A stretch of DNA of 50,384 bases, from contig JAAYCS010000028.1 of assembly GCA_012729655.1 (NCBI GenBank), positions 1 to 50,384 on the forward strand, written 5' to 3'. Below, in pieces: positions 7,841-26,264 of the stretch. Positions within the stretch are counted from its first letter, which is position 1, and every line of letters begins with the position of its first letter. Below the pieces are notes generated by a model. The model had not been told where the DNA came from and searched no databases. It saw only the letters and a list, made by a program, of their open reading frames with translations. Both the position numbers and the translations under genes were made by a program. This DNA is from Desulfovibrionales bacterium. Its GTDB lineage: Bacteria > Desulfobacterota > Desulfovibrionia > Desulfovibrionales > Desulfomicrobiaceae.

Positions 7841-8989
7841 ATGAAAAAGATACTTGTCTCCGTTGCCGTGCTGGCAGTCGTCTCCCTTGGATATCTGGCC
7901 TGGAACAAACCATCCCAGGCCGATCAGCCCACCCCGGCCGCGGCCAAACCAGTCCCCGAGGTGGTCGTGGTGACCATGCAGGAGCGGGAGGTCCGGCTGA
8001 CGTCTGAACTGCCTGGACGCACGGCTGTGTACCAGGTGGCTGAAATCCGGCCCCAGGTCGGCGGCATCATCCAGAAGCGGGTCTTCGCCGAGGGCACGGA
8101 AGTCAAAAGCGGACAACTCCTGTACCAGATCGATCCCGACACCTACGAGGTGGCCGTGGCCCGGGCCACGGCCGCGGTGGCCAAGGCCAAGGCCGAACTG
8201 GAGCCTGCCCGCCTCAAGGCTGTCCGCTATGCCGAACTGATCCGGACCAAAGCCGTCAGCCAGCAGGACCATGACGAGGTCCAGGCCGCCCTGGCCCTGG
8301 CCAAGGCCAATGTCTCCTCGGCCCAAGCCGAACTGGAAGCAACCCGCATCGATCTGCAGCGGACCAAGGTGGTCTCGCCCATCAGTGGACGCATCGGCCG
8401 TTCAGCCGTGACCCCCGGGGCCCTGGTCACCGCCAATCAGGCTCAGGCCCTGGCCACGGTACAGCAGCTCGACCCCATCTATGTCGACCTGACCCAATCC
8501 AACGTGGAACTCTTACGCCTGAAGAGGGCTCTGGAATCCGGAGCTGTACAGGCCTCCGGGACGTCGGCAACAAAGGTCCGCCTCATCCTCGAGGACGGCA
8601 CGGACTATGCGCATGATGGCACCCTGCAGCTGGCCGAGGCCAGCGTGGATCAGGGGACCGGATCCGTAACCCTGCGGGCCGTTTTTCCCAACCCCAAGCG
8701 GGACCTGCTGCCCGGCATGTACGTGCGGGCCATTGTCGAGGAGGGTGTGCTGTCCGCAGCCATGCTCATCCCGCAGCAGGCCGTGGTCCGCAACGCCCAG
8801 GGTCAGGCCATGGCCATGGTCGTGGACGCCGGGGATATCATCGCCGCCCGCCCCCTGCAGCTGGACCGCGCCGTGGGCGGTGACTGGATCGTGCGTCAGG
8901 GCCTGGCCGCCGGCGACCGCGTGGTGGTCGAGGGTCTGCAGAAGGCCCGTCCGGGCACCCAGGTCCGTATTCGCCAGTCCGCCAACTAG
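7841..8989 (+). CDS. RND efflux membrane fusion protein, AcrA/MexA type
   Basis: A 382-residue periplasmic adaptor joining the inner membrane pump to the outer membrane channel. An N-terminal hydrophobic segment (residues 4-20) acts as anchor or signal; no lipobox cysteine is seen. The lipoyl half-motif RPQVGGIIQKRVFAEGTEV is followed by an alanine-rich helical hairpin (about residues 95-165), the second lipoyl half (VVSPISGRIGRSAVTPGALV) and the beta-barrel region (FPNPKRDLLPGMYVRAIVEEG). The ATG follows GGAAGGAAAG. It lies between the TetR gene and the pump gene, all on the same strand. Confidence 0.95.
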   Translation: MKKILVSVAVLAVVSLGYLAWNKPSQADQPTPAAAKPVPEVVVVTMQEREVRLTSELPGRTAVYQVAEIRPQVGGIIQKRVFAEGTEVKSGQLLYQIDPDTYEVAVARATAAVAKAKAELEPARLKAVRYAELIRTKAVSQQDHDEVQAALALAKANVSSAQAELEATRIDLQRTKVVSPISGRIGRSAVTPGALVTANQAQALATVQQLDPIYVDLTQSNVELLRLKRALESGAVQASGTSATKVRLILEDGTDYAHDGTLQLAEASVDQGTGSVTLRAVFPNPKRDLLPGMYVRAIVEEGVLSAAMLIPQQAVVRNAQGQAMAMVVDAGDIIAARPLQLDRAVGGDWIVRQGLAAGDRVVVEGLQKARPGTQVRIRQSAN

Positions 8990-9085
8990 TTTTACTTCAG
9001 GCTACTGAACCCGCTCCCCGTTGCCCCGGCCCAGCCGGGACGGGAACGGATTCCGCGCCCCCAGCCGGAAAGAGAAGGAGATATC

Positions 9086-12000
9086 ATGGCTCATTTTTTC
9101 ATCAACCGGCCGGTCTTCGCCTGGGTTCTGGCCATCACCACCATGCTGGCCGGCGTCCTGTCCATCTTCGGCCTGCCCATCTCGCAGTACCCGCCCATCG
9201 CCCCGCCGTCCGTGGCCATCAGCGCGACCTATCCCGGCGCGTCGGCCAAGACGCTCGAAGACGCGGTGACCCAGGTCATCGAGCAGAAGATGAAGGGCAT
9301 CGACAACCTCGACTACATGTCCTCGACCAGCGAATCTTCGGGCCAGGCCACCATCACCCTGACCTTCAAGGCCGGCACCAACCCCGACATCGCCCAGGTC
9401 CAGGTGCAGAACAAGCTGCAGCTGGCCATGGCCCTGCTGCCCCAGGAAGTGCAGGCCCAGGGCGTGCAGGTCACCAAGGCGGTCAAGAACTTCGTGCAGG
9501 TCCTGGGCTTCGTGTCCGAGGACGGGTCCATGTCCAGGGCGCAGCTGGCCGACTACGTGGCCGCCAATGTCCTGGACGGCCTGAGTCGCGTCGAGGGCGT
9601 GGGCGAGGTCACCCTGTTCGGGTCCCAGCACGCCATGCGCATCTGGCTCAACCCCGACAAACTGCACACCTACAGCCTGACCCCAACCGACGTGGCCGCG
9701 GCCATCAGGGCCCAGAACGCCCAGGTCTCGGCCGGGCAGCTGGGCGGCCTGCCCTCGGTGGAGGACCAGCGCATCAACTTCACGGTCAGCGTCCAGGACC
9801 GCCTGCAGACCCCGGAGCAGTTCCGGGACATTCTGCTGAAGGTGAACACAGACGGATCCACCGTGCGGCTGGGCGACGTGGCCAAGGTGGAGCTGGGAGC
9901 CGAAAACTCCCAAGTCGTGTCCCGATTCAGCGGCCAGCCGGCTGCAGCCACGGCCATCAAGCTGGCCACCGGGGCCAACGCCCTCAAAACCGTGCAAGCC
10001 GTTGACAACTATATTAAAAGTATCAGTCCGACCTTCCCGGTCGGCATGAAGGCGGTGGTTGCCTTCGACACCACACCCTTCGTACGCATCTCCATCGAGG
10101 AGGTGGTGCGCACCCTGCTCGAAGCCGTGGCCCTGGTCTTTCTGGTCATGTACCTCTTCCTGCAGAACTTGCGCGCCACCCTCATTCCGACCATCGCCGT
10201 GCCCGTGGTGCTCCTGGGCACCTTCGGGGTGCTGGCGGCCTTCGGCTTCTCCATCAACACCCTGACCATGTTCGCCATGGTCCTGGCCATCGGCCTGCTG
10301 GTGGACGACGCCATCGTCGTGGTCGAGAACGTGGAGCGCATCATGCACGAGGACGGCCTCTCGGCCAGGGACGCAACCCACCTGTCCATGACCCAGATCT
10401 CCGGGGCCCTGGTGGGCATCGCCCTGGTGCTCTCGGCAGTCTTCGTGCCCATGGCCTTCTTCGGCGGCTCTACCGGCGTGATTTACAGGCAGTTTTCCAT
10501 CACCATCGTCTCGGCCATGGTGCTTTCGGTTCTGGTGGCCTTGATCCTGACCCCGGCCCTGTGCGCGACCATGCTCAAGCCGGCCAAGTCCGGACAAGGC
10601 AAGCGCGGCTTTTTCGGGTGGTTCAACCGTGGTTTTGACCGCACGGCCAAAGGCTATCAGGGACTGGTCGGCGGTATGACCCGGAATTGGGGACGATCCC
10701 TGGTTCTGTTCGCCCTCATCCTGGGCGGCATGATCTTCCTTTTTCAGCGCCTGCCCACGGGATTTTTGCCCGACGAGGATCAAGGCATCCTCTTCGTGCA
10801 GGTCCAGTTGCCCATCGGTTCGACCCAGGAGCGCACCCTGGATGTGTTGGAGCGCATTGAACATCACTTCCTGGAAAGTGAAAAGGATGCCATCGAATCA
10901 CTCATGGCCGTGGCCGGCTTCAGTTTTGCAGGCAGCGGCCAGAACACGGCCATGTGTTTTGTTCGTCTCAAGGACTGGAGCCAGCGCAAGAGCCCCGGTC
11001 TCAGGGTCAAAGCCGTTGCAGGGCGGGCTATGGCCGTATTCTCACAGTTCCGTGACGCACAAGTTTTCGCGTTTTCACCACCCGCTGTCCTGGAACTTGG
11101 CAACGCACAGGGTTTCGATTTCGAACTGCAGGACAGGGCGGGCCTGGGCCATGAAAAGCTCACGGCCGCCCGCAACCAACTCCTGGGCATGGCCAGCCAG
11201 CATCCAGATCTGGCCATGGTCCGGCCCAACGGCCTGGACGACACGCCGCAGTACCGCATCGATATCGACTGGGACAAGGCCAGCGCCCTGGGTCTGGCCG
11301 TGTCCGACGTAACCAGCGTCATCGCCACGGCCTGGGGCAGTTCCTATGTGAACGATTTTCTGGACAAGGGCCGCGTGAAAAAAGTCATCATGCAGGGCGA
11401 GGCGCCCTACCGCATGATGCCGGAGGATCTTGGCCGCTGGCACGTGCGCGGTCGTGAAGGCCAGATGGTGCCCATGTCCAGCTTTGCCACGGCCCACTGG
11501 ACATCAGGCTCGCCCCGTCTGGAACGCTACAACGGCGTTCCGGCCATGCAGATCCTCGGCATGCCAGCTCCGGGCAAGAGCTCGGGCCAGGCCATGGCGA
11601 CCATGGAGAGTCTGGCCGAACAGCTACCCGAGGGCATCGGCTATTCCTGGACCGGCCTGTCCTTTCAGGAACGCCAGGCCGGATCGCAAACACTCATGCT
11701 CTACACGCTCTCCATCGTGGTGGTCTTCTTGTGTCTGGCGGCTCTGTACGAAAGCTGGAGTCTGCCCGCGTCGGTCATCCTGGTCATACCCATCGGCGTG
11801 CTCGGCGCCCTGGCGGCCGTCAGCCTGCGCGGTCTGACCAACGACGTGTACTTCCAGGTCGGACTGCTGACGACCATGGGCTTGGCGGCCAAAAACGCCA
11901 TCCTCATCGTCGAGTTCGCCAAAAGCCTGACCGAATCCGGCATGGAGCTCATGCAGGCCGTGGTCGAGGCGGCCCGGCAGCGCCTGCGGCCCATTCTCAT

Positions 12001-12244
12001 GACCTCCCTGGCCTTTGCTCTGGGCGTGCTGCCCCTGGCCCTCAGTTCCGGGGCGGGATCCGGAGGGCAGAACTCCATCGGGACGGGTGTCATCGGCGGC
12101 ACCATCGCCTCCACCATCGTCGGTTCCCTGCTCATTCCGGTCTTCTTTGTCATTGTGGCCCGGCTGGGCATCTCCCGCAGGAATCCGAAAAACACCACAT
12201 GCCGAGCCATCATTCCGGGAGGCCACCCATGCGAAGAAGACTGA
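9086..12244 (+). CDS. RND multidrug efflux pump, AcrB/MexB (HAE-1) type
   Basis: A 1,052-residue proton-driven inner membrane pump of normal family length. It begins [14 protein letters not shown] as HAE-1 pumps do, has twelve predicted helices in two repeats, and carries the paired acidic residues of helix 4 in [18 protein letters not shown]. Large periplasmic loops follow helices 1 and 7. The ATG at 9086 follows AAGGAG. It overlaps the outer membrane factor gene by 16 bases, so the two are translationally coupled. Substrates are probably hydrophobic or amphiphilic drugs, bile-like compounds or solvents; the sequence does not say which. Confidence 0.97.
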
Positions 12245-13647
12245 TTCTGATCCTTATGCTCATGATTCTGACTGGTTGCGCCAGTTTGGCCCCTGAGCGG
12301 GAGCGTCCGGACATGCCGGTGCCTGGTGACTGGCTCGAGCGGGCCCAATTCAACGCCACCGGGAGTGACGTGGGGCAACTGGGCTGGCGTGACGTTTTCC
12401 TGGACCCGGCCCTGCAGGAACTCATCAGCACTGCCCTGAACGAGAACAGAAGCCTCAGGCAGGCTGCCCTGGCCATGGACAAGGCCATGGCCCAGTTCGG
12501 AATCGCCCGCGCCGACCGTATTCCAAACGTGGACGCTTCGGGCCGGACATCGACGACCCGGTTCCCTGCTGATTTGCGCAGCGGGATCGAGGGTATCGAC
12601 CGGCAGTGGAGTGTGGGTCTGGGGGTCACGTCCTTTGAACTGGATTTCTTCGGGCGGGTGAGGAACCTGGAGGAGTCGGCCCTGGAACAGTATCTGGCCA
12701 CGGAAGAAGCCCGACGGGCGGTACACATCAGTCTGGTATCGCAGATCGCCCGGGTGTATTTGGCCTTGGCCGGGGATCGCGAGAATCTGGCCTTGTCCCG
12801 GGATACCCTCAGAAGCCGTCAGGCGAGCCTTGACCTGACCATGGCCAAGCTGGCCAACGGTCTGGCCACGGAACTGGAACGCCATCAGGCGGAGGAAGTC
12901 GTGGCCGTGGCCCAAGCCGAGGTCGCCCGTCTGAAGGCCCAGGTGGCCATGGATGAAAACGCCCTGGCCGTCCTGGTCGGGGTTCCGGTATCGGGTCTGA
13001 AGCTGCCGGCCCAGGTCATCGACGACGTGGCCGTCAGGGAATCCATCGCCCCTGGTCTGCCCTCGGATCTGCTGACCCGACGGCCGGACATTCTGGAAAC
13101 AGAACATCTGCTCTGGGCCGCCGGGGCCGAGATCGGGGCGGCCAGGGCCGCTTTTTTCCCGCGCATCGGTCTGACCACCACGGCCGGCCTGGTCAGTCTG
13201 GAGCTGACAGATCTCTTTGACTCGGCCCAACGGACCTGGGCTTTCGTGCCAAGTGTGACCATGCCCATCTTTGACGCGGGGCGGAACAGGGCCAGGCTGG
13301 ACGCAGCCAAGGCGGAACAGAAGATCCGCATTGCCCGGTACGAGCAAATCATTCAAAACGCGTTCCGGGAAGTGGCCGATGCCCTGGCCAAAAATCAGGG
13401 GTACGCGGGACAGGTCGAGGCCCAAGCCCGGCGCGTGCACAGCGCCGGGCAGAGCAGAATCCTGGTTGATCAGCGCTATCAGGCGGGACTCGAAAGCGCT
13501 TTTGCGGTGCATGACGCCGAACGGACCCTGTTTGCGGCCCGCCAGGACCTGCTGTCCGTCCGTCTGGCCCGGAAGTTCACCCTGGTGGAGCTCTTCGCTG
13601 CCCTGGGCGGAGGCTGGGAGGAGAAAGGAGGCCTTTCGGCATATTGA
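12229..13647 (+). CDS. Outer membrane efflux lipoprotein, OprM/NodT type
   Basis: A 472-residue outer membrane factor forming the exit duct for the pump. The signal peptide ends in the lipobox LTGC (cysteine at about residue 17), followed by two TolC-like repeats. Recognisable family segments are [39 protein letters not shown] and [14 protein letters not shown]. The ATG at 12229 lies inside the end of the pump gene and follows GGGAGG. It is the last gene of the operon and is followed by a strong hairpin. Confidence 0.95.
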
Positions 13648-13703
13648 TCAGGGGGTCGATCTTTCATGGGCCGGCCCATTCGACCGCCAACGGTGGATGA
13701 AGG

Positions 13704-13749
13704 AGATCCGATCATGGTCAGCACGTCCAGCCATGATCGGATCTCTTGT
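13704..13749 (+). terminator. Terminator-like hairpin after the efflux operon
   Basis: Perfect 14-base arms AGATCCGATCATGG (13704-13717) and CCATGATCGGATCT (13731-13744) enclose a 13-base loop and are followed by CTTGTTTTCCC. The T run is imperfect, but the position 57 bases after the last operon gene fits termination. The rest of the 230-base gap to the next gene holds nothing I recognise. Confidence 0.7.
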
Positions 13750-13877: not shown

Positions 13878-15212
13878 TCAGCCCAACCCCAGGCGCTTGA
13901 GCTTTTCGCGCAGGGTCTTGCGGTCGATACCCAGGATCTCGGCGGCGCGGGTCTTGTTGTCCCCTGTTCCGGCCAGGACGCAGCGGATATGTTCGGCCTC
14001 CACTTCGGCCAGGGTCTTTTCCCCGAAGCGGTGTCGGCTGATGGTGAAGCGCATGGTTTCCGGCAGGTCGGTGATGTCGATGTCATCCCCTTCCCCGATG
14101 ATGACAAGCCGTTGCAGCAGATTTTCCAGTTCCCGCACGTTTCCCGGCCAGGGGTAGTGCATAAGGGCCGTCAGGGCTTCGTCGGTCAGGCGCGGTGCGG
14201 GCCGGCCCATGTCCGAAGCGAATTTATTCAGAAAATGATTGGCCAGGAGCAGGATGTCGTTCCCACGCTCAGCCAGGGATGGCAGGCGGATTTCGATGAC
14301 ATGAATGCGGTAGAAGAGATCTTCCCGGAACAGACCCTGCTGGACCAGCTGGCGCAGATTCTGGTGCGTGGCCGCAATGATGCGGGTATCCACGGTGCGG
14401 GTCCGCGACGATCCGACCATGCAGAACTCCTTGCTCTGCATGACCCGCAGCAGCTTGGCCTGCAGACTGGGGCTGGCATCCCCGATCTCGTCCAGAAAAA
14501 TGGTCCCTCCGTTGGCGATCTCGAAAAATCCGGCCCGGCTGTCCCTGGCGCCAGTGAAGGCGCCCTTGACGTGGCCAAAGAGCTCGCTTTCCAGGAGCGT
14601 GTCCGGGATGGCCGTGCAGTTGACAGGCACGAAGGCCGAGGCTCGGCGGTCGCTGTTGTAGTGCACGGCCCGGGCCACCAGCTCCTTGCCCGTGCCCGAC
14701 TCCCCGGAGATGAAGACGTTGGCGCTGGTCTGGGAGGCCTTGCGGATCAGGTCGAAGACCGTGCGCATTTCCGGACACTCCCCGATGATACCGTGGGTGG
14801 CAATCTCCTGTGTTCCGGCGTGCACCGCCCGTCGCCTGGCCTGCTTGTCCAGGATCCGCCGCACCACGGCGAGGAGTTCCTCCCCGGTGAAGGGCTTTGC
14901 CAGATATTCACCTGCCCCGTCGCGCATGGCCTCCACGGCTCCGGAAATGGACGGATAGCCAGTGATCATCATGATTTCCGTATCCTTGAAGTTCTCGCGC
15001 ACGTATTTGATCAGGTCCAGGCCGCTGGATTTTGGCATCTTGAAGTCTGTAATGACCAGATCGACGCTCACGGCATCGAGGAAGTCCCCGGCCTCCTCCA
15101 CGCTGCCGCAGGTATGGATCTGATAGCCGGCTCCGTTGAGATGACGCGAGATGACTTCCAGGGTTGCCGGACTGTCATCCACGGCCAGAATCGTCATTCT
15201 TTGTTCTTGCAT
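13878..15212 (-). CDS. Sigma-54-dependent response regulator, NtrC family
   Basis: A 444-residue activator with receiver, AAA+ and DNA-binding domains. The receiver (about 5-120) has acidic pocket VDDS, phospho-acceptor in VITDFKMPK and the lysine in LAKP. The AAA+ domain (about 140-380) has Walker A GESGTGKE, the sigma-54 contact loop GAFTGA, and Walker B IFLDEIGD. The C-terminal Fis-type helix-turn-helix reads TRAAEILGIDRKTLREKL. The frame is open 38 codons further upstream into the kinase gene; I chose the ATG at 15212, which follows GGGAAGAA and leaves a 16-base gap after the kinase stop. It is the cognate partner of that kinase and the likely activator of the sigma-54 promoter at 19807-19822. 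Confidence 0.95.
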   Translation of the reverse strand: MQEQRMTILAVDDSPATLEVISRHLNGAGYQIHTCGSVEEAGDFLDAVSVDLVITDFKMPKSSGLDLIKYVRENFKDTEIMMITGYPSISGAVEAMRDGAGEYLAKPFTGEELLAVVRRILDKQARRRAVHAGTQEIATHGIIGECPEMRTVFDLIRKASQTSANVFISGESGTGKELVARAVHYNSDRRASAFVPVNCTAIPDTLLESELFGHVKGAFTGARDSRAGFFEIANGGTIFLDEIGDASPSLQAKLLRVMQSKEFCMVGSSRTRTVDTRIIAATHQNLRQLVQQGLFREDLFYRIHVIEIRLPSLAERGNDILLLANHFLNKFASDMGRPAPRLTDEALTALMHYPWPGNVRELENLLQRLVIIGEGDDIDITDLPETMRFTISRHRFGEKTLAEVEAEHIRCVLAGTGDNKTRAAEILGIDRKTLREKLKRLGLG

Positions 15213-15228
15213 GTCGTGTTCTTCCCGT

Positions 15229-16728
15229 TCAATCCTGTGCCGCCGAGGCAGGATCGGCGCAGGGAAACGTGATCTCGAACCGCGTTCCCCGACCCGGTTC
15301 GCTGACCACGTCGATGATCCCGCCATGGGCGGAGACTATGCCGTGCACCACGGCCAGACCCAATCCGGTTCCCTGGTCAGAATCCTTGGTGGTGAAGAAG
15401 GGATTGAAGATCTGCCGCAGCACCTCGGTCTCCATGCCCACGCCGGAGTCTTCCACCAGGAGATAGACGTCGTGGTTGAAGGACAGAGTGCGGATGGTCA
15501 AGGTTCCCCCGTCGGGCATGGCATGAATGGCGTTGACCATGAGGTTGACCATGACCTGTTTCAGGTGCTGGGGGTCGCCCATAATGTCCGGCAAGTCCTC
15601 GCTCAGGTCCAAATGGATGCCAATGTTGTTCCTCGCCGCACCCGTTTCGATGAAATACAGGGTGTCCCGGATGACCTGATTCATGTCGACCATGCTCTTC
15701 TGCAGCGGAACCTGGCGGCCAAAGATCATCAGCTTCTTGATGATTTCCCGGCTGTGCAGGGCGGACTTGACGATATTGTCCAGATCCCTGGACACTTGGG
15801 AGGGCAGGTCGGGGGTCTGCGCGGCCAGTTGCGCGAATCCCAAAATATTGGCCAGGGGTTCGTTCAGTTCATGGGCCACGCCCGCCGCAAACTGGCCGAT
15901 CTTGGCCAGACGGTCGGCATGCTGAAGTTGGCGCTCCAGGTTTCTTTTGGTGTCCATGGCCTCGCGCTTGGTGATGATCCAGCCCACGTGCTTGGCCAGG
16001 GCTGAAAGGAGCTCACATTCAGTGGGCAGAAAGGCATGGGAAATCCCGTCCTGGGTGGCACCTTGGAGGCTGACGCTCAGATGTCCCCGTTTGACCTTGT
16101 GCACCATCACGCTCTGCTCCATGCGGGAATGGGCCTCGGGGGCGTATTGTCCGCTGAATAGGGAATGGCCGTCCAAAACCAGGCGTACTCCCGTGAATTC
16201 GGGATACTGGAAAGAGGGGGGGATGAGGGCCAGGATCTCGTGCAGAATGTCCGGCAGGTCGCTGTCCATGTTGGCCACGATCCTGTTCATGGCGTGCAGG
16301 CAGGAGAGCTCTTTGTTCAGGGCCATGAGGCGGTCCTGTTCATGCATCAGCTTTCGTTGGCGTTCGACGTGGGCGGTCACGTCCTGACCTACGCACAGGA
16401 CGCTGACCAGTCGGCGTTGGGAATCGAACAAGGGCTTCATGTTCCAGTCGATATAGACCGTGCGGCCATCCTTGGTCCGCAGAGAACCCTTCATGAGGGA
16501 CAGGCGCCCCCGTTCGGCAATGCCGGCGAATTCGGCCTTGGCCTTGGCCCGATGTCTCTGATCTACGCAGGTTTCAAACCAGTCCAATCCGGCGATCTGG
16601 CTGGTCAAGTATCCGGAAACCACCTCGAACCGGGAATTGCCGTGGATGATCCGCCCGGTTTCGTCCAGGGTGATGACGATGCCGTGGCTCAATTCCATCA
16701 CGGCATTGTAGTATTCGGAAAGGTTCAT
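15229..16728 (-). CDS. PAS-domain sensor histidine kinase
   Basis: A 499-residue kinase with no obvious membrane helix, so it probably senses in the cytoplasm. An N-terminal PAS domain (about 1-120; VITLDETGRIIHGNSRF) leads through a coiled linker to a GAF-like region (about 150-275). A HisKA domain follows with the phospho-acceptor histidine in GVAHELNEPLANILGFAQL, then an HATPase domain with N box LMVNAIHAMPDGG, G1 VEDSGVGM and G2 GTGLGLAVVHG. This arrangement is typical of NtrB-like partners of NtrC regulators. The ATG at 16728 follows GGGGGGCAC. An intrinsic terminator lies just upstream, so the kinase-regulator pair may be expressed at a lower level than the genes before it. Confidence 0.93.
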   Translation of the reverse strand: MNLSEYYNAVMELSHGIVITLDETGRIIHGNSRFEVVSGYLTSQIAGLDWFETCVDQRHRAKAKAEFAGIAERGRLSLMKGSLRTKDGRTVYIDWNMKPLFDSQRRLVSVLCVGQDVTAHVERQRKLMHEQDRLMALNKELSCLHAMNRIVANMDSDLPDILHEILALIPPSFQYPEFTGVRLVLDGHSLFSGQYAPEAHSRMEQSVMVHKVKRGHLSVSLQGATQDGISHAFLPTECELLSALAKHVGWIITKREAMDTKRNLERQLQHADRLAKIGQFAAGVAHELNEPLANILGFAQLAAQTPDLPSQVSRDLDNIVKSALHSREIIKKLMIFGRQVPLQKSMVDMNQVIRDTLYFIETGAARNNIGIHLDLSEDLPDIMGDPQHLKQVMVNLMVNAIHAMPDGGTLTIRTLSFNHDVYLLVEDSGVGMETEVLRQIFNPFFTTKDSDQGTGLGLAVVHGIVSAHGGIIDVVSEPGRGTRFEITFPCADPASAAQD

Positions 16729-16781
16729 GTGCCCCCCAGGCTCCTGGCCTTCCTAGCAAAGGCTTGTGCATGGGTCCAAAC

Positions 16782-16812
16782 AAAAAAACGCGGCCCCCAA
16801 GGGGACCGCGTT
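16782..16812 (-). terminator. Intrinsic terminator inside the TauE/two-component locus
   Basis: Arms at 16787-16798 and 16801-16812 pair over 12 positions (one G-U type pair) around a 2-base loop, followed on the minus strand by seven T (16782-16788). It lies between the membrane-protein gene and the kinase gene, so it splits the locus into a highly expressed front and a read-through tail. Confidence 0.88.
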
Positions 16813-16839
16813 GCAAAACGGGGAACAGGTTTCTGTGGC

Positions 16840-17541
16840 CTAATGCCCGCTGATCTTCAGGCCCCAGCCTTCGAAGACGAACAGGATGGCGAAGCCATAC
16901 CACATGGTATAGATGACATAGAACACCAGGGAAAAGATGACGATGCCAATCTTGTTTTTGATCTGTTCCGGCACGACCTTGTAATAGTTGTAGGCCGTTT
17001 CCACCACCTTGGAATTGACATTGAAGGCGACTTTGGCCTGGGCAAAGGCCTCCTGTTTTTTCAATTCCTTGTCGAAGCCGCCGAGGATCTTGTACCAGTT
17101 GTACACGGCCTGCCTGTCGTCCTTGCCCGCCAATGCCGGATACTTGGCCTTCAGGGCCGCGCTGTCGTTGTTGTACAGCTTGTCCGCATCATTCAGACAT
17201 GCGTTGAGGATGGCAACATAGTCGCCGTTGATGGTCAGTGCCTTGCCCTGGGCCGAGGCCGTCCCTCCGGCGGCAGTGATGAGGGCCACGCTGTCGGCGG
17301 CCTGGGCTTCATCTTCCATGTTCATGGTTACCTTGACATTGTAGCCAGCCAGTGTCTTGGCCTCCTCCTTCAGGGCATCCACGTAGTGGGCCGACCCCTT
17401 GGAGATGGAGTTGTACAGGTTGTCCAGATAGGCCATGGCGTTATGCCCGTCGAAAAGCGGCTGGAACATGGCGAAGAGGACGATGAAGAAGAGCACAAGG
17501 AGGGCAATGCCCAGGTTGAATTCCTTCTTGTTATGAATCAT
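16840..17541 (-). CDS. Membrane protein with large periplasmic domain, TauE/SafE partner (function unknown)
   Basis: A 233-residue protein I cannot assign to a named family. One hydrophobic helix (about residues 9-27, IALLVLFFIVLFAMF) is followed by about 165 polar residues and a second helix (about 200-225, GIVIFSLVFYVIYTMWYGFAIL). This topology would place the central domain in the periplasm. That domain is rich in Ala, Lys, Asp and Tyr (LDNLYNSISKGSAHYVDALKEEA) and looks helical, as in ligand-sensing or substrate-capturing domains. The start follows AAGGA and lies 4 bases after the TauE/SafE stop, so the two are almost certainly co-translated. A role as a subunit or sensor for the permease is inference. 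Confidence 0.85.
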   Translation of the reverse strand: MIHNKKEFNLGIALLVLFFIVLFAMFQPLFDGHNAMAYLDNLYNSISKGSAHYVDALKEEAKTLAGYNVKVTMNMEDEAQAADSVALITAAGGTASAQGKALTINGDYVAILNACLNDADKLYNNDSAALKAKYPALAGKDDRQAVYNWYKILGGFDKELKKQEAFAQAKVAFNVNSKVVETAYNYYKVVPEQIKNKIGIVIFSLVFYVIYTMWYGFAILFVFEGWGLKISGH

Positions 17542-17545
17542 ATGA

Positions 17546-18823
17546 TCAATCCTTATACTTCAGTGTCTTGATATTCTTGAAAAACGCACTAAACACCCAG
17601 ATGCCGAACAGGGCGATGACGATGAAGAACAGGTACATGCCAACGGTGTCCATGCCCTTGGCCAGGCCAGCCCAGGAGGCAGGCAGGATTTCCATGCTGA
17701 CCAGTTTCTTGGGCAGGGCGAAGAACCGGTTCACGAAGCCAGCCATGACCGAGACGGCGAAGAAGCCGCGAATGGTGATACCTGGCACGACCTTGGTCAC
17801 CAGTGCCCCGATCTGGATGCCAACCAGGGACCCGAGCAGCATGCCCATGGCCAGGGTGTAGAAGATGAATCCGTAGATGGCGTACTGGGTGATGGCCCCG
17901 TAGCCGGCGGTGAACACGATCTGGAAGATGTCCGTGCCGACGGTGGTCAGGGAGGACACGCCCAGGATATAGACGAAGATGGGGAAGGTCAGAAAGCCCC
18001 CGCCCACACCCATGATGCCCGCGGCCATGCCGACCAGGGCGCCGGACAGGACCAGGAACAGCCAGGAAATCTTGCGGCCGCCCGGGATAAGGCCCTGGTC
18101 GAAGGTGACCATGGGCGGCAGGGTGATGCTCTGCAGTTTCTGGGCGATGCCCGTCATGGACGCGCCTTCTTTGGCGTCGTGGGCGCCACCCTTGACCCCG
18201 GCCTTCTTGGCGCTGAAATAGTCATACATGCCATAGAAACCCAGAAAGCCGAGCATGATCGTGTACACGACGGTAATGAATGTGTCGCTCAGCACCGGGT
18301 TGACGTTGTACAGAAAACGGTTGATGCCTGCGCCCACCGTCGTGCCGACGATGGCGCCGATCAGGAAGACGAAGGCCAGAGGCACCGAGACGTTGCCCAT
18401 CTTGCGGTGCAGGACCGAACCCATGATAGCCTTGGCGAAGATATGGAAGAGGTCCGTGCCGACGGCCAGAATACCCTTGACGCCGGCGCTCATAAGGGCC
18501 GGGGCGATGATGAAGCCGCCGCCCGCACCGATGCAGCCGGAGATCAGTCCCGCGCCGACGCCGACGAAGATGGACACCAGAAAGATGAACATGCTGTAGT
18601 AGGACGGGCTGTAGGCTTCCTTGCCGCCAATGGCGCTGGGCAGGGCTTTGCCGATTTCATCCGCAAAGGCCCATCCGCCCAGGACACAGGGGATGAGCAG
18701 CAGGGCGAGCAGCCAGATCCGCCGTTTATCGCCTAGAATCACGCGGGCGTTTTCCACTTCCCACCGGGCAAAGGACCGAGAGCCCTCTACCATGAATGAA
18801 CCCCATTGTTTGAAGAATCCCAT
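17546..18823 (-). CDS. TauE/SafE-family sulfite/organosulfur or anion permease
   Basis: A 425-residue inner membrane transporter. After an approximately 35-residue polar N-terminal extension and one extra helix come two TauE/SafE repeats, each with the glycine-rich signature: GAGLISGCIGAGGGFIIAPAL near residue 95 and GMAAGIMGVGGGFLTFP near residue 260. Family members export sulfite, sulfoacetate or other sulfonates, or take up small organic anions. The ATG is preceded by AGGAGG about 10 bases away. Its place between two response regulators and a two-component pair suggests its substrate is what the system senses. Which anion it moves cannot be decided from sequence. Confidence 0.92.
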   Translation of the reverse strand: MGFFKQWGSFMVEGSRSFARWEVENARVILGDKRRIWLLALLLIPCVLGGWAFADEIGKALPSAIGGKEAYSPSYYSMFIFLVSIFVGVGAGLISGCIGAGGGFIIAPALMSAGVKGILAVGTDLFHIFAKAIMGSVLHRKMGNVSVPLAFVFLIGAIVGTTVGAGINRFLYNVNPVLSDTFITVVYTIMLGFLGFYGMYDYFSAKKAGVKGGAHDAKEGASMTGIAQKLQSITLPPMVTFDQGLIPGGRKISWLFLVLSGALVGMAAGIMGVGGGFLTFPIFVYILGVSSLTTVGTDIFQIVFTAGYGAITQYAIYGFIFYTLAMGMLLGSLVGIQIGALVTKVVPGITIRGFFAVSVMAGFVNRFFALPKKLVSMEILPASWAGLAKGMDTVGMYLFFIVIALFGIWVFSAFFKNIKTLKYKD

Positions 18824-18863
18824 ACGTGTTACCGCCTCCTCTTTTTCTCAAGTCCTTAAGAAT

Positions 18864-19280
18864 TCATGCAGGTGGCACATCCAACCCGCTTTCCTCATCC
18901 AATTGTCTGCTCCGATCGCCAGCATCGCGGAGCTTGCGGACCAGGTCTTCCAGGTCCGCTGGCTTCATCAAGTAGTCGTAGGCTCCCATGGCCATGCCCG
19001 AGATGGCCGATTCCATGTCCGCATGGCCCGTCAGCATGAGAATCTGGACCAGAGGATGGCGCATTCTGATCTCGCGCAGGACCTGAATTCCATCCATGCC
19101 GGGCATGTTCACGTCCAGGACCACCACATCGACCGGATCGGTTTCGAGCTGGCCCAAACCTTCCGGGCCGCTGCCTGCCATCGTCACCACAAACCCTTTT
19201 CTGCGCAGTCGCTTGGCCAGGATCGCCGCAAACTGGGTTTCGTCATCGACAAGAAGAACCCTGATTGTGCCCGCGCTCAT
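18864..19280 (-). CDS. Single-domain response regulator (second of two)
   Basis: A 138-residue CheY-like receiver with no output domain. Pocket residues are in LLVDDE, the phospho-acceptor in VVLDVNMPGMDG, the threonine in MLTGHA and the conserved lysine in LMKP. The true start is the ATG at 19280; the frame continues upstream into the preceding gene but without receiver homology. The gap to the first receiver gene is 13 bases. Output-less receivers act by protein-protein contact or as phosphate sinks; possible partners are the kinase at 15229-16728 or the other receiver. Confidence 0.92.
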   Translation of the reverse strand: MSAGTIRVLLVDDETQFAAILAKRLRRKGFVVTMAGSGPEGLGQLETDPVDVVVLDVNMPGMDGIQVLREIRMRHPLVQILMLTGHADMESAISGMAMGAYDYLMKPADLEDLVRKLRDAGDRSRQLDEESGLDVPPA

Positions 19281-19293
19281 CTGGCCAACCCTG

Positions 19294-19725
19294 TCAGCCT
19301 CTGCGGCTGGCGAATTCGCGAACGCGCGCGTCGACGATTTTTTCTTCATGCCGACGCTTTTTCTCCACTGCTTCCTTGACCTTTTCCACCAGCACATCGA
19401 TGTTACAGGGTTTCATCAGATAGTCTGCTGCACCCAGGCGCATTCCGTCTATGGCGGACTCAAGGGTGCCGTGCCCGGTGAGCATGATGACCTCCACCAG
19501 GGGATGCTGCTGCTTGATGATCCGCAAAATCTCGATACCGCTCTGACCGGGAAGCTTCACGTCAAGGATGACCACCTCGATTTCGCCGTGCATCGCAAGC
19601 TTATGCATGGCCTCCTCGCCACTGCTTGCGTGAAACACCTCCATCTGGCGCATGGTCAGGCGTTTCTTCATGACGTCGATGAACTGCGCATCGTCATCGA
19701 CCAGCAAAATATTGGCGTCGGTCAC
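19294..19725 (-). CDS. Single-domain response regulator (first of two)
   Basis: A 143-residue receiver that starts with GTG at 19725, 7 bases after AAGGAGG. It has LLVDDD, the phospho-acceptor aspartate in VVILDVKLPGQSG, MLTGHG and LMKP. The last 25 residues are a charged helix (KEAVEKKRRHEEKIVDARVREF) and not a DNA-binding domain. It resembles the next gene, so the pair probably arose by duplication. It is the first gene of the locus, about 70 bases downstream of the sigma-54 promoter start point. Confidence 0.92.
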   Translation of the reverse strand: MTDANILLVDDDAQFIDVMKKRLTMRQMEVFHASSGEEAMHKLAMHGEIEVVILDVKLPGQSGIEILRIIKQQHPLVEVIMLTGHGTLESAIDGMRLGAADYLMKPCNIDVLVEKVKEAVEKKRRHEEKIVDARVREFASRRG

Positions 19726-19806
19726 ACTCCATCCTCCTTGACGATCTGGCCTGAGGCCGATCCCCCTCGGTCATACACCCCGGGCTCTCGGACTCCGGAC
19801 CTCAAA

Positions 19807-19822
19807 AGCAACGCCCGTGCCA
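19807..19822 (-). promoter_or_regulatory. Sigma-54 (RpoN) promoter of the TauE/two-component locus
   Basis: On the minus strand TGGCAC (19817-19822), five bases, then TTGCT (19807-19811) match the sigma-54 consensus TGGCAC-N5-TTGCW exactly. The start point would be near 19796, about 70 bases before the first receiver gene. The operon it drives encodes an NtrC-type activator, so autoactivation is likely. Confidence 0.88.
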
Positions 19823-19889: not shown

Positions 19890-19995
19890 TTATGTATAAA
19901 AATAAATATAGAATTTTTGGCGGGTCAGGGCAGGGGGCCGGACGATGTCAAATCCGGAAAAAAAATTGAGTTGGGCTGGGGTGTTTTTCCCCACA

Positions 19996-20037
19996 GGAGC
20001 ATTTCGCCCCGTATGCTGGATTCTGCTCCAATGCTCC
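19996..20037. promoter_or_regulatory. Candidate upstream activator repeats for the sigma-54 promoter
   Basis: GGAGCATT (19996-20003) and AATGCTCC (20030-20037) are exact inverted repeats, and TGCTGG, TGCTCC, TGCTCC recur at about 20014, 20024 and 20032. The element lies about 200-240 bases upstream of the predicted start, a typical enhancer distance. Assigning it to the local NtrC-type protein is inference. Confidence 0.4.
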
Positions 20038-20068: not shown

Positions 20069-20090
20069 CGCGGGGATCTTTTTCCCCGCG
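20069..20090 (-). terminator. Terminator-like hairpin after the methyltransferase
   Basis: CGCGGGGA (20069-20076) and TCCCCGCG (20083-20090) form a perfect 8-bp stem with a 6-base loop, 3 bases past the methyltransferase stop on the minus strand. A run of T follows after a gap of about ten bases. Confidence 0.6.
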
Positions 20091-22227: not shown

Positions 22228-23487
22228 CTACGCCGAGAACGAAACCTTGAAACAGCTCCCTTTCGGCTGCATTTCAGAGGCGGTAATCGTCCAGCCGTTG
22301 CGCTCGCAGATGCGTTTCACCAGTGACAGTCCGAGCCCCAGTCCCAGCCCCCTGGTGGCCGTACCGCGCACAAAGGGCTCGAAGATGTGGTCCCGCTCGT
22401 GGGCGGGAATGCCCATGCCCGTGTCTTCGACCCGGAACCCGTCCCGCTCCAGGATGACGCGCACCGTTCCACTGGCCGTGTAGTGCAGCGCGTTGCGCAA
22501 CAGGTTGGCCATGGCCGTGCGCAGGAACGTCGGGTTGTGGCCGGCCGTGCCAGCCCCTTCGTCAATCAACTCGAAAGCGAGCCCCTTGGCGCGGATCGAC
22601 GGCCCCCACAGTTCGGCCTGTTCCCGCGCGACCTCGGCCAGCGTGGTCGTCTCGGCGGTTTCGGCCGGGCCTGACCGCGCGAGGAGCAGAAACGTCCGGA
22701 CCAGGTCGTTCATGTCCCGCGCGGCCCGGGCGATGCGTTCGACCTGCCCGCGCTGGGCGACCTGCAGCGGGTTTTCGAGCAGCAGCTCGCACGATGTGGA
22801 GATGACCATCAGCGGTGTGCGCAGCTCATGGCTGACATCGCTGGTGAAGAGGCGCTCGCGTTCGATGGACCTGCGGAGCTGGCCGAGGGTCGTGTCGAAG
22901 GCGGCGGCCAGATGCCCGATCTCGTCGTCCGCATAGCCCGGGGCCAGGGGGGCAGTGCGGGTGGCGAGCTGGTCGGGGTGCCGGACCTGTCCGGCGAGCC
23001 GTGCCACCGGCTCCATGACCTGTCTGGCCATGACCACGCCGATCCCCCAGGCGCAGACGATGCAGAGCAGAAAGCCCGCCAGAACCACCGAGAAAAGAAT
23101 CTCCTCCCTGTTTTCAAACTCCCGCTGGTCCTGCAGGAGCATGTACCGCGAACCGTTGACCTCCAGGACATAGATGTAGGCAGCCTCGTCCTCTTCCTCG
23201 ATCTCCGTGAACCCATCGGGATAGTCCGAGAAACGCTCCGGGATGGGGTGACTGGCCGAGTTCGAGGCAAAAAAGCGGGTTCGGGCGTCGAGCCGCGGCT
23301 CCCTGCCGGCCTTGATGTCCTCGTGGAGGACCATGTTCAGTTTGCCGTACAGCTCTTTTGAGATGAGCTGATCTTCGACAAAATGGACGACGGCCACGAT
23401 CCCCAGGGAAAAGGAGCCGCTGACGACCATCGTCATGAGCACGAAGGCGATGACGATGCGCTGGGAGAAGGGGAGTCTAGAGGTCAT
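22228..23487 (-). CDS. Membrane sensor histidine kinase (envelope stress type)
   Basis: A 419-residue kinase with two membrane helices (about 10-35 and 130-152) flanking a roughly 95-residue periplasmic sensor rich in acidic residues (FTEIEEEDEAAYIYV). A HAMP-like linker precedes HisKA with the phospho-acceptor in FTSDVSHELRTPLMV and an HATPase domain (NLLRNALHYT, VEDTGMGIPAHERDHIFEPF, GLGLGLSLVKRI). The start overlaps the regulator gene by 11 bases. It is divergent from the envelope-modifying genes that begin at 24264. An acidic periplasmic loop is reminiscent of metal- or cation-sensing kinases such as PmrB or ColS, which is a hint only. Confidence 0.94.
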   Translation of the reverse strand: MTSRLPFSQRIVIAFVLMTMVVSGSFSLGIVAVVHFVEDQLISKELYGKLNMVLHEDIKAGREPRLDARTRFFASNSASHPIPERFSDYPDGFTEIEEEDEAAYIYVLEVNGSRYMLLQDQREFENREEILFSVVLAGFLLCIVCAWGIGVVMARQVMEPVARLAGQVRHPDQLATRTAPLAPGYADDEIGHLAAAFDTTLGQLRRSIERERLFTSDVSHELRTPLMVISTSCELLLENPLQVAQRGQVERIARAARDMNDLVRTFLLLARSGPAETAETTTLAEVAREQAELWGPSIRAKGLAFELIDEGAGTAGHNPTFLRTAMANLLRNALHYTASGTVRVILERDGFRVEDTGMGIPAHERDHIFEPFVRGTATRGLGLGLGLSLVKRICERNGWTITASEMQPKGSCFKVSFSA

Positions 23488-24160
23488 CGGCCTTCTCCGC
23501 CAGACGGTACCCGATGCCGTGCACCGTGTGCAGCAACGGAGAATTGAAGGGCTTGTCCACGACCTGGCGCAGCTGGTGGATGTGGCTGCGCAGGCTGTCG
23601 CTGTCCGGGCAATCGTCGCCCCAGAGTTCGCGCTCCAGTTCCTCGCGGCGGACCACGGCCGGGCTTTTGCGCATCAGGATCTCCAGGAGCTTCAGCCCGA
23701 AAGGGTGCGGTTTGAGCGTTCTGTCCGCACGCCGCACCTGCAGGGTCTCCACGTCGAAGGAAAGGTCGCCGACCCGCAATTCATGGCCCCGTCCCCCCCT
23801 GGCCCGACGCAGCACGGCCTGGATGCGCGCGTGGAGCTCTGACAGGGCGAAGGGTTTGACGAGGTAGTCGTCGGCGCCGGTGCTGAACCCGCGGATGCGG
23901 TCGTCCAGCGTGTCGCGGGCGGTGAGCATGATGATCGGGACGTCGAGCCGGGCATCCTCGCGCAGACGTTTGCAGATCTGGTAGCCGTCGATGCCGGGCA
24001 GCATGACGTCCAGCACGATCAGGTCGTAGGCCTGGGTCACGGCCAGGTGCAGGCCTCCGAGCCCGTCCTGGGCGCAGTCGACGGTGTAGCCCTTGAGCTG
24101 GAGGTAATCGAGCACGTTGGCGAGGATGTCGGGGTTGTCTTCAACGATCAGGATGCGCAT
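23477..24160 (-). CDS. OmpR-family response regulator
   Basis: A 227-residue regulator with a receiver (residues 1-118; IVEDN, VLDVMLPGIDG, MLTARD, YLVKPF) and a winged-helix DNA-binding domain (about 128-222; KPHPFGLKLLEILMRKSPAVV, LRSHIHQLRQVVDKPF, VHGIGYRL). It is read first, with the kinase overlapping its end. The 103-base divergent region to the LtaS-like gene must contain both promoters, so control of that gene by this regulator is likely, by analogy with ColRS and PmrAB. Confidence 0.95.
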   Translation of the reverse strand: MRILIVEDNPDILANVLDYLQLKGYTVDCAQDGLGGLHLAVTQAYDLIVLDVMLPGIDGYQICKRLREDARLDVPIIMLTARDTLDDRIRGFSTGADDYLVKPFALSELHARIQAVLRRARGGRGHELRVGDLSFDVETLQVRRADRTLKPHPFGLKLLEILMRKSPAVVRREELERELWGDDCPDSDSLRSHIHQLRQVVDKPFNSPLLHTVHGIGYRLAEKADDL

Positions 24161-24263
24161 GGATGCGGACCTTGGATTGGGGATTCACGAATTTTTCACG
24201 ACAGCACGACATTCGGCTCACGGCCAGGGGCATAGCACGGGACAACACCACGGAGGAATGTAC

Positions 24264-26264
24264 ATGTCCCTTTCACGATATGCCCAGGTTCGCTGTTTGG
24301 CCATCATCCTGGGCGCCTGGCTGGCCGTTTTTTTTCTGACACGCCTCGTCTTGCTGGCAAGTCACCTAGGCGATGTCAATACCGGCGTGCTCGGCATGCT
24401 GGGTATCTTCGGCCTCGGCCTGGTCCACGACCTGAGTTTTCTCAGCTACGCGGCGCTGCCCGTGGCCCTGCATTTCGCCCTGTGCCCGGCATCGGCCTGG
24501 GAATCCGGGTGGCACCGGGGCCTGCTGCGAGGCCTGATGGGGCTCAGCCTCTTCGTCATGCTCTTCACGGCCGTCTCGGAATGGCTGTTCTGGGACGAGT
24601 TCGGCGTCCGCTTCAACTTCATCGCCGTCGACTACCTCGTCTATTCGAACGAAGTCATCAACAACATTCTGGAATCGTACCCCGTCTATCCCCTCCTGGC
24701 CATGCTCGTCGTGCTCTCGGCGGCCGGGGTCGCCCTGTCGGGCAAGGTCATGGACCGGGCCATTGGGGCGCCCCTGCTGTCGCGGCGCGGCCGCGGCCTG
24801 CTTTTCGCGGCCGTGGCCGGGGCGAGCCTGCTCGTGACCGTTTTCGCGGGGCAGGACTTCGCCGCAGGCGGAAGCACCACGCAACGCGAACTCGCGGCCA
24901 ACGGCCCGTTCCAGTTCTTTGCGGCGTTTCGCAACAACGAACTCGACTACTCCCAGCTCTACGCCACGCTGCCAGGTGAGGAAGTCGGGGCGCTGCTTCG
25001 CCGGGAGGTGGCCGAACCCGGCGCCCGCTTCGTCGGCGACGACCCCCAGGACATCCGCCGTGAAATCGACAATCCGGGTGCCTTTCGGCGGCTCAACGTC
25101 ATCGTCGTCACGATCGAGAGCTTGAGCGCGAAATATCTCGGCTGTTTCGGCGATACACGCAACCTGACCCCGAATCTGGACCGACTGAAGCCCGAGAGCC
25201 TCTTTTTCAGCAATTTCTTCGCGACAGGCACGCGCACGGACCGGGGCTTGGAGGCCATCACCCTGTCCGTGCCCCCGACTCCCGGACGGTCCATCGTCAA
25301 ACGCCTGGGCCGGGAAACCGGGTACGCGAGCCTCGGCCGGCAGCTGGAGGCGCGGGGCTACGACAGTGTCTTCCTGTACGGCGGACGCGGCTATTTCGAC
25401 AACATGAACGCGTTCTTCGGCGGCAACGGGTACCGCATCATCGACCAGACGAGTGTTCCCGAGGAGGAGATCACCTTCAAGAACGTCTGGGGCATGTGCG
25501 ACGAGGACCTCTACGCCCAGGCCCTGCGGCAGGCGGACATCGACCACGCCGTGGGCAAGCCGTTTTTCCTCCAGCTCATGACCACATCCAACCACCGTCC
25601 CTTCACCTATCCCGAAGGCCGCATCGTCATCCCGTCGGGGTACGGTCGGGAGGGGGCCGTCAAATACACAGACCACGCCATCGGCGCTTTCCTGGAAGAG
25701 GCGCGGCGCAGGCCCTGGTTCGGGTCCACGGTTTTCGTCATCGTTGCGGACCACACGGCGAACAGCGCCGGCAAGGAGGACCTGCCCGTGGAGAAGTACC
25801 GCATTCCCCTTTTCATTTTCGCACCAGGGATTGTCGAACCGCGTGAAGTGCCGACGCTGGCAAGCCAGATCGACTTGGCCCCGACCCTGCTCGGACTGCT
25901 GAACCTCGACTACACCTCGACCTTCTTCGGCCGGGACGTGCTGCGCGAGGATGCGGCCGGGGGACGGGCGCTCATCGGCAACTTCCAGCACCTGGGCCTC
26001 TTCGACGGGCATGATCTCGCCATCCTGAGTCCGAAAAAAGGGATGCGCCGCCACGACGACGCCCTGGGCCTGAGCGACGAGTCGGCCGGCAGCGCCCGTG
26101 ACGCCCTCGTGCGCCGCGACATCGCCTACTATCAGGGCGCGAGCCACATGTTCCAGCATGGCCTCCTGCGCTGGTCGTCAGAGACCCCGCTGAAGGGGGA
26201 CGACGGAGACGCGTCACCATCAGTCACAGCAATGTCCCCGCCACAGGCACGCAAGGAGGGCTGA
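24264..26264 (+). CDS. LtaS-like membrane sulfatase-fold phosphoglycerol/phosphoethanolamine transferase
   Basis: A 666-residue protein with about five N-terminal membrane helices (residues 1-230) and a periplasmic alkaline-phosphatase-superfamily domain. The metal site and catalytic threonine are visible in VTIESLSAKYLGCFGD, TPNLDRL, ATGTRTDRGLEAIT and VIVADHTANS. Relatives move phosphoglycerol or phosphoethanolamine from phospholipids onto glycans or lipid A. I use the ATG at 24264 after GGAGGA; an ATG two codons earlier overlaps the ribosome site. The gene overlaps the following glycosyltransferase (TGATG), giving tight coupling. The acceptor is not evident from sequence. Confidence 0.92.
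   Translation: MSLSRYAQVRCLAIILGAWLAVFFLTRLVLLASHLGDVNTGVLGMLGIFGLGLVHDLSFLSYAALPVALHFALCPASAWESGWHRGLLRGLMGLSLFVMLFTAVSEWLFWDEFGVRFNFIAVDYLVYSNEVINNILESYPVYPLLAMLVVLSAAGVALSGKVMDRAIGAPLLSRRGRGLLFAAVAGASLLVTVFAGQDFAAGGSTTQRELAANGPFQFFAAFRNNELDYSQLYATLPGEEVGALLRREVAEPGARFVGDDPQDIRREIDNPGAFRRLNVIVVTIESLSAKYLGCFGDTRNLTPNLDRLKPESLFFSNFFATGTRTDRGLEAITLSVPPTPGRSIVKRLGRETGYASLGRQLEARGYDSVFLYGGRGYFDNMNAFFGGNGYRIIDQTSVPEEEITFKNVWGMCDEDLYAQALRQADIDHAVGKPFFLQLMTTSNHRPFTYPEGRIVIPSGYGREGAVKYTDHAIGAFLEEARRRPWFGSTVFVIVADHTANSAGKEDLPVEKYRIPLFIFAPGIVEPREVPTLASQIDLAPTLLGLLNLDYTSTFFGRDVLREDAAGGRALIGNFQHLGLFDGHDLAILSPKKGMRRHDDALGLSDESAGSARDALVRRDIAYYQGASHMFQHGLLRWSSETPLKGDDGDASPSVTAMSPPQARKEG

Follow-up and report, generated by a model that had tools for sequence, protein, structure and literature searches.

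We propose that the TauE/SafE-type permease encoded in a 50,384-nucleotide contig of a Desulfovibrionales bacterium (GenBank assembly GCA_012729655.1, contig JAAYCS010000028.1, the whole of which is referred to here as the window) and the membrane protein of 233 residues encoded directly downstream of it, here called P233, very probably form one unit. The two would be the subunits of a single inner-membrane anion permease of dissimilatory sulfate or sulfite reducers, and the reading that we favour overall, by a modest degree, is that of a TSUP permease made of two subunits, transporting a sulfur oxyanion of sulfate respiration and placed under sigma-54 control in Desulfomicrobium. The window groups with this genus, and the near relatives of its genome include the Desulfomicrobium contigs L028 and L030. 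The preliminary description of the locus had listed two output-less receivers, a TauE/SafE permease, a two-helix protein, a PAS kinase, an NtrC-type activator and a sigma-54 site, and this inventory was borne out, all six genes and the site being present in the window and all lying on the minus strand. In window coordinates the features are as follows.

20072..20087, minus strand: palindrome GGGG-N8-CCCC, predicted upstream activator site 1 (alternatively a hairpin ending the preceding gene)
19996..20010, minus strand: degenerate palindrome GGGGCGAAATGCTCC, predicted activator site 2, inside a conserved upstream block
19978..19992, minus strand: palindrome GGGGAAAAACACCCC, predicted activator site 3, conserved in the genus
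19807..19822, minus strand: sigma-54 promoter TGGCACGGGCGTTGCT, assigned by pattern search and conservation in the genus
19294..19725, minus strand: RR1, single-domain receiver of 143 residues with a GTG start
18864..19280, minus strand: RR2, single-domain receiver of 138 residues, its start chosen at 19280 in a frame open from 19397
17546..18823, minus strand: TauE/TSUP permease of 425 residues, PF01925 at 123.8 bits (cut-off 32.6)
16840..17541, minus strand: P233, a transmembrane helix, an extracytoplasmic domain and a second transmembrane helix, the TauE partner
16787..16812, minus strand: terminator-like hairpin of 11 pairs with a T run, between P233 and the kinase
15229..16728, minus strand: PAS sensor histidine kinase (PAS-HisKA-HATPase) of 499 residues, without a hydrophobic segment
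13878..15212, minus strand: NtrC-type sigma-54 activator of 444 residues (receiver, AAA+ with GAFTGA, Fis-type helix-turn-helix)
13701..13747, no strand assigned: 18-bp inverted repeat in the gap that separates the activator from the convergent efflux genes, perhaps a terminator in both directions (z -5.4 on the plus strand, -3.4 on the minus strand)

The pairing is best seen in its distribution. At E values up to 0.001 the window permease matches PF01925 only, with no DASS (PF00939) or SulP domain, and it belongs to a clade in which 47 relatives are 51-92% identical to it, at a mean column identity of 66% (the alignment, A2, omits L043, L052, L061, L063, L077, L078, L080 and L082). Among 61 genomes, the window's own and 60 relatives, proteins of this tight clade are present in 35 and score 654-724 bits against the clade profile, with the next TSUP protein at 162 bits. 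P233 was found in the same 35 genomes, adjacent to TauE in every one across a gap of 6-64 nucleotides, and neither gene occurs alone. The window genome encodes seven PF01925 proteins and a single P233. P233 lies directly downstream of TauE in all 87 unique loci that have at least 500 nucleotides of upstream DNA, two genomes of one genus have a divergent TauE and P233 joined as a single uninterrupted frame (the fusions being 75% identical to each other), and a divergent TauE-P233 pair is again adjacent in three genomes of another genus (L126, L127 and L130). The P233-like protein of L126 carries a long lysine-rich tail, and at L060:129-4367 two copies of P233 flank a single TauE, each copy having the gene of a universal stress protein after it. 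In L002, from the window's own genome, and at L036:13192-14226 there is a further TSUP subtype, which carries GTD motifs in its two repeats and does not adjoin P233; the GTD motif was dropped as a mark of the clade, since other TSUP proteins have it too. A known fold for TauE was likewise rejected, its model having a predicted local distance difference test score (pLDDT) of just 71 and no match in PDB at E values up to 0.001.

P233 itself has hydrophobic segments at residues 5-33 and 197-224, and these agree with the helices at 5-26 and 198-226 of its structural model (pLDDT 92.4), between which lies a helical domain into which a small alpha/beta unit is inserted. The alignment of the family (A1, which omits L042, L077, L078, L080 and L082 as incomplete or without an enclosing frame) has invariant polar residues at D40, N44, K48, S50, E181 and N185, and the most conserved stretch, FYVIYTMWYGFAI, falls within the second of the membrane helices. 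Comparisons by sequence and by fold led us to set aside a known domain for P233: with 52 members Pfam gave nothing better than E 0.0024 (the 25 weak matches listed being of many unrelated kinds), NCBIfam had no match for the window protein at E 0.001, and the best PDB hits were at E 0.11 by sequence and E 0.19 by fold. No P233-like partner of a TSUP protein is described in the literature searched, which was mainly open-access and taken as text without figures or supplements. The constant presence of this unnamed partner suggests that a TSUP carrier can depend on a second subunit.

What the pair carries is suggested by the company it keeps. In the window's phylum P233 was found in 72 of 297 genomes and DsrA, above its cut-off, in 143; DsrA was present in 68 of the 72 genomes with P233 against 75 of the 225 without it (odds ratio 34, p 1.5e-21). 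In Nitrospirota, the phylum of the genome of L062, 40 of 198 genomes have P233, and DsrA was found in 36 of these 40 against 48 of the other 158 (odds ratio 20.6, p 3.8e-12). The four genomes of the window's phylum with P233 and DsrA below the cut-off are 62-80% complete, and in two of the four such Nitrospirota genomes DsrA is in split pieces. Genes of the DASS type (Na_sulph_symp) lie near TauE-P233 in L048 and L070 by Pfam and in L057, L102, L103, L117 and L119 by tblastn, with a fragment in L045; Pfam confirms DASS around G324, G249 and G029, the genomes of L117, L119 and L102, and finds no DASS domain among the six genes of the window. The link to a sulfur anion made in the preliminary description is therefore supported, both by the co-occurrence with DsrA and by DASS genes nearby in other lineages. 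On this sequence evidence a sulfur oxyanion is the likely substrate, the best candidates being those of respiration (sulfate, sulfite or thiosulfate). The export put forward in the preliminary description is not supported by these data, and import would be somewhat more probable than export.

The alternative that survives best is a sulfite (or sulfonate-derived) exporter that protects the cell when sulfite builds up, with the PAS domain of the kinase sensing an intracellular signal, an alternative to which both the family name and the preliminary description point. Cupriavidus necator TauE, also in PF01925, is called a probable sulfite exporter (PMC5840216, PMC4287615; these and other papers are cited here for the parts of their text that were accessible), the kinase is predicted to be cytosolic, and the association with DsrA suits sulfite as well as sulfate. 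However, the transporters that do occur nearby belong to DASS, a family treated as one of sulfate importers (PMC11887813), and we regard an exporter as unlikely. It is more improbable still that the pair carries a non-sulfur anion useful to sulfate reducers, such as lactate, acetate or bicarbonate, and follows DsrA only through a shared lifestyle. Nine sigma-54 operons of D. vulgaris do encode TSUP or PSE carriers without a known substrate, two of the PSE carriers being co-regulated with lactate genes (PMC4641369), but the pair tracks DsrA in two phyla, is also found in sulfate-reducer-like Firmicutes, and has DASS and CBS genes near some of its loci.

The genes around the pair are less constant than the pair itself. 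Scanning named genomes for P233 yielded 55 loci, which come from Desulfobacterota-type bacteria, Nitrospirae and Firmicutes; stretches from further relatives were added, and 92 loci were left once identical P233 DNA had been removed. In the 1 kb before TauE there are one to three receiver matches in 51 of 78 loci, counted as matches to the receiver domain, in single-domain proteins or otherwise. The first probe match within 1 kb after P233, in the 82 unique loci with 1.5 kb of downstream DNA, was a PPDK_N/PEP-utilizer protein in 30, a kinase in 17, a universal stress protein in 7, a receiver in 2 and a piece of TauE in 1, and there was no probe match in 25. The 17 loci with the kinase belong to Desulfomicrobium, its sister genus and Pseudodesulfovibrio (L034), and all 17 also have an activator, that of L034 being 66% identical to the window's. 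Two receivers, the kinase and the activator occur together in 12 of the 14 kinase-bearing loci of the genus, L089 having one receiver and L088 being cut. Outside the loci in which a kinase follows P233, a kinase match often precedes the receivers (e.g. L037, L038, L056, L100, L101, L117, L118 and L120); the one such kinase scanned for domains, that of L034, has a dCache domain.

From these upstream and downstream counts, TauE-P233, often with receivers, is therefore the widely kept core, to which the PAS kinase and the activator are a local addition. The six-gene set as a widespread unit was rejected, as the kinase follows P233 in just 17 of the 82 loci. The conservation of neighbourhood that the preliminary description had put forward as a check thus holds in part: TauE-P233, mostly with receivers, is kept outside close relatives, and the set of six is local. 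The PPDK_N/PEP-utilizer protein often found after P233 has roughly 850-900 residues (e.g. L038:7707-10412), of which the last ~300 match nothing in Pfam, and the one that was scanned with Pfam showed no PEP/pyruvate barrel; a 53% identical piece of it lies at a contig start in the window genome (G000:C118). The idea that TauE-P233 is mainly a sensor (transceptor) signalling to the PAS kinase and the receivers, which would suit a kinase without a membrane segment and the receivers and kinases that accompany the pair in many lineages, seems improbable given that in genus g12 (L110-L115) the pair has no kinase, receiver or activator match up to about 6 kb on either side and that the Firmicutes loci L048, L057 and L068 lack upstream receivers.

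In the window's regulatory genes the motifs that were looked for are intact. Each of the three receivers has the phospho-acceptor Asp together with Thr and Lys, and the kinase has its H, N, G1, F and G2 boxes. The kinase is predicted to be cytosolic because hydropathy analysis, the sole method applied here, gives no membrane segment, and the activator has the receiver, the AAA+ domain with GAFTGA and the Fis-type helix-turn-helix of the NtrC class. The promoter pattern with up to two mismatches is no commoner in the window than chance (21 found, 26.5 expected in shuffles), and TGGCACGGGCGTTGCT is the only mismatch-free site of the 21. The promoter stands above chance because it is conserved: all 14 genomes of the genus for which there is upstream DNA have TGGCAY-N5-TTGC about 50-97 nucleotides ahead of RR1 (12 with the full region, plus L029 and L092; L030 and L095 are one contig, counted once). 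No such site was found in the three sister-genus loci (L097-L099). Across 90 upstream regions, sites were found in 21 (mean of plain shuffles 0.08), 16 of them Desulfomicrobium rows including duplicates and 5 others.

Upstream of the promoter, two GGGG-N6..9-CCCC palindromes lie ~350 and ~254 nucleotides before RR1 in 11 of the 13 genus genomes with full upstream DNA, and the remaining two have one each; by the strict pattern, L089 and L092 are the only members of the genus without the site at ~350 nucleotides. One palindrome is present in two of the three sister-genus loci, and none in L100 or L101. As to further targets of the palindrome, GGGGNRAAANNNCCCC has four exact matches in the genome, including the window's own, against one for the reversed control. 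Within the genus, then, a conserved -24/-12 element is found together with upstream palindromes, which supports the sigma-54 control claimed in the preliminary description, and local control by sigma-54 is, from these sites, highly probable.

A single self-activating operon, as the preliminary description also had it, has become doubtful, because a conserved terminator-like hairpin lies between the permease genes and those of the kinase and activator. This GC-rich element with its T run occurs in the gap between P233 and the kinase in all 14 Desulfomicrobium loci checked, where the stems vary but keep their pairing, and in two loci of the sister genus; in the window (16812-16787) it has the longest stem of a general scan of the region. 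A six-gene operon would be expected to have no terminator between structural and regulator genes, and here one is predicted from sequence; the regulators may therefore be expressed at a lower level by read-through, or from transcripts of their own. Two Desulfomicrobium genomes, G006 and G011, weaken the single operon further: there an activator orthologue, 80% identical, sits away from TauE-P233. In G011 (L163, the one displaced neighbourhood that was scanned with Pfam) the activator adjoins histidine-biosynthesis genes, a rhodanese/YgaP-like gene and an MFS gene, and in G006 (L162) it has the same surroundings with no TauE near. The RR1-TauE-P233 locus of G011 retains the sigma-54 site and one palindrome.

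Taken together, we propose that TauE is the TSUP carrier and that the extracytoplasmic domain of P233 sits with it, a physical complex being suggested by co-occurrence, adjacency and fusion. In Desulfomicrobium, RR1-RR2-TauE-P233 would be read from the sigma-54 promoter, with the local NtrC-type protein acting at the GGGG/CCCC palindromes, as the conserved sites suggest, and the cytosolic PAS kinase would phosphorylate this activator. The hairpin after P233 may allow partial read-through, which would keep kinase and activator low and damp any positive feedback. The receivers, which are in the more widely kept part of the module, probably act either on the permease or as phosphoryl acceptors; an action on the permease in particular is a tentative suggestion, to which we give less than even weight.

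Several observations weigh against this proposal. The fused TauE is a distant TSUP protein (E about 1e-45) outside the tight clade, and 27 of the 78 loci have no receiver match before TauE. The DsrA statistics ignore shared ancestry, 75 and 48 DsrA-positive genomes in the two phyla have no P233, and DsrA was above the cut-off in 13 of the 16 genomes behind the named loci. The nearness of DASS genes is given as raw counts, and 20-kb flanks from 10 genomes yielded DASS in three, all already found by tblastn. As to regulation, sigma-54 sites are largely confined to the genus and rare outside it, the palindromes are weak in the window taken alone (four matches with one mismatch allowed, 1.4 expected, and four reached in 5 of 100 shuffles), and they are absent in L034 despite its similar activator. 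G006 has kept the activator while both TauE and P233 are absent. Finally, terminator-like sites are not in excess across the region (5 found, 5.7 in shuffles), and the hairpins of the relatives were counted without a shuffled control.

How sulfate enters sulfate reducers is unsettled: a D. vulgaris mutant without three annotated permeases for sulfate can still live by reducing it (PMC7531388). TauE-P233, which accompanies dissimilatory sulfite reductase in two phyla, offers a specific, testable candidate. A combined reading would make the pair a new two-subunit TSUP class that is a main sulfate (or sulfite) uptake system, set by phosphorylated receivers and, in other lineages, by the dikinase-like protein for which the scan showed no PEP/pyruvate barrel; as a whole we think this rather unlikely, but if true it would be the kind of transporter that the mutant implies.

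Elsewhere in the window, apparent efflux-pump genes (7841-13647, plus strand) are convergent with the activator; among them the membrane-fusion protein alone was domain-scanned, and the RND and outer-membrane labels are by sequence appearance. A second kinase and response-regulator gene adjoins a gene for a sulfatase-domain protein (22228-24160, minus strand, and 24117-26264, plus strand).

Among known systems, one parallel in plan is the YeeE-YeeD (TsuA-TsuB) system of thiosulfate uptake, a sulfur-anion carrier with an adjacent, essential partner (PMC11073785). Unlike YeeD, which decomposes thiosulfate (PMC11073785), P233 is predicted to be membrane-anchored and extracytoplasmic, and its 52 members showed no sequence relation to the YeeD kind of Pfam family (nothing better than E 0.0024). 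A DASS sulfate-transporter cluster of 30.5 kb, which also has two-component systems, CBS proteins and Cache-domain kinases, was described in 2025, with related clusters in 26 species in all (PMC11887813). Some of the TauE-P233 loci resemble it in part, in the receivers, kinase, CBS-like and DASS genes around G249, in the dCache kinases before the receivers in L034 and after them in L036, and in the CBS and DASS genes of L048; they differ in that no TauE or partner is named in the available section of that paper, and the window's six genes include no DASS.

Within TSUP/TauE-SafE (PF01925), the window protein is a clear member above the cut-off, set apart by the constant two-helix partner of its clade and by the tightness of that clade (654-724 bits against 162 for the next). 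Sulfate reducers have many TSUP proteins to which no function is assigned, and clade B (DVU2958, Adeg_0175 and Dret_2118) is, by its description, likewise conserved across sulfate-reducer phyla (PMC5840216). D. magneticus RS-1 requires a TauE homologue for its magnetosomes, which does not belong to a TauE-P233 pair because the gene downstream of this homologue is on the other strand (PMC4287615), and a highly expressed tauE homologue of A. fulgidus was guessed to import sulfite (PMC3949148); the accessible text of PMC10102598 and PMC3333781 yielded nothing on TauE. Sigma-54 control of TSUP operons is known in D. vulgaris: DVU0132-0133, compared here by description, has a sigma-54 promoter, an activator of the two-component type and a TSUP carrier as in the window, and another sigma-54 case with such an activator is DVU0617-0616 with DVU0619, whose function is left blank in the table (PMC4641369).

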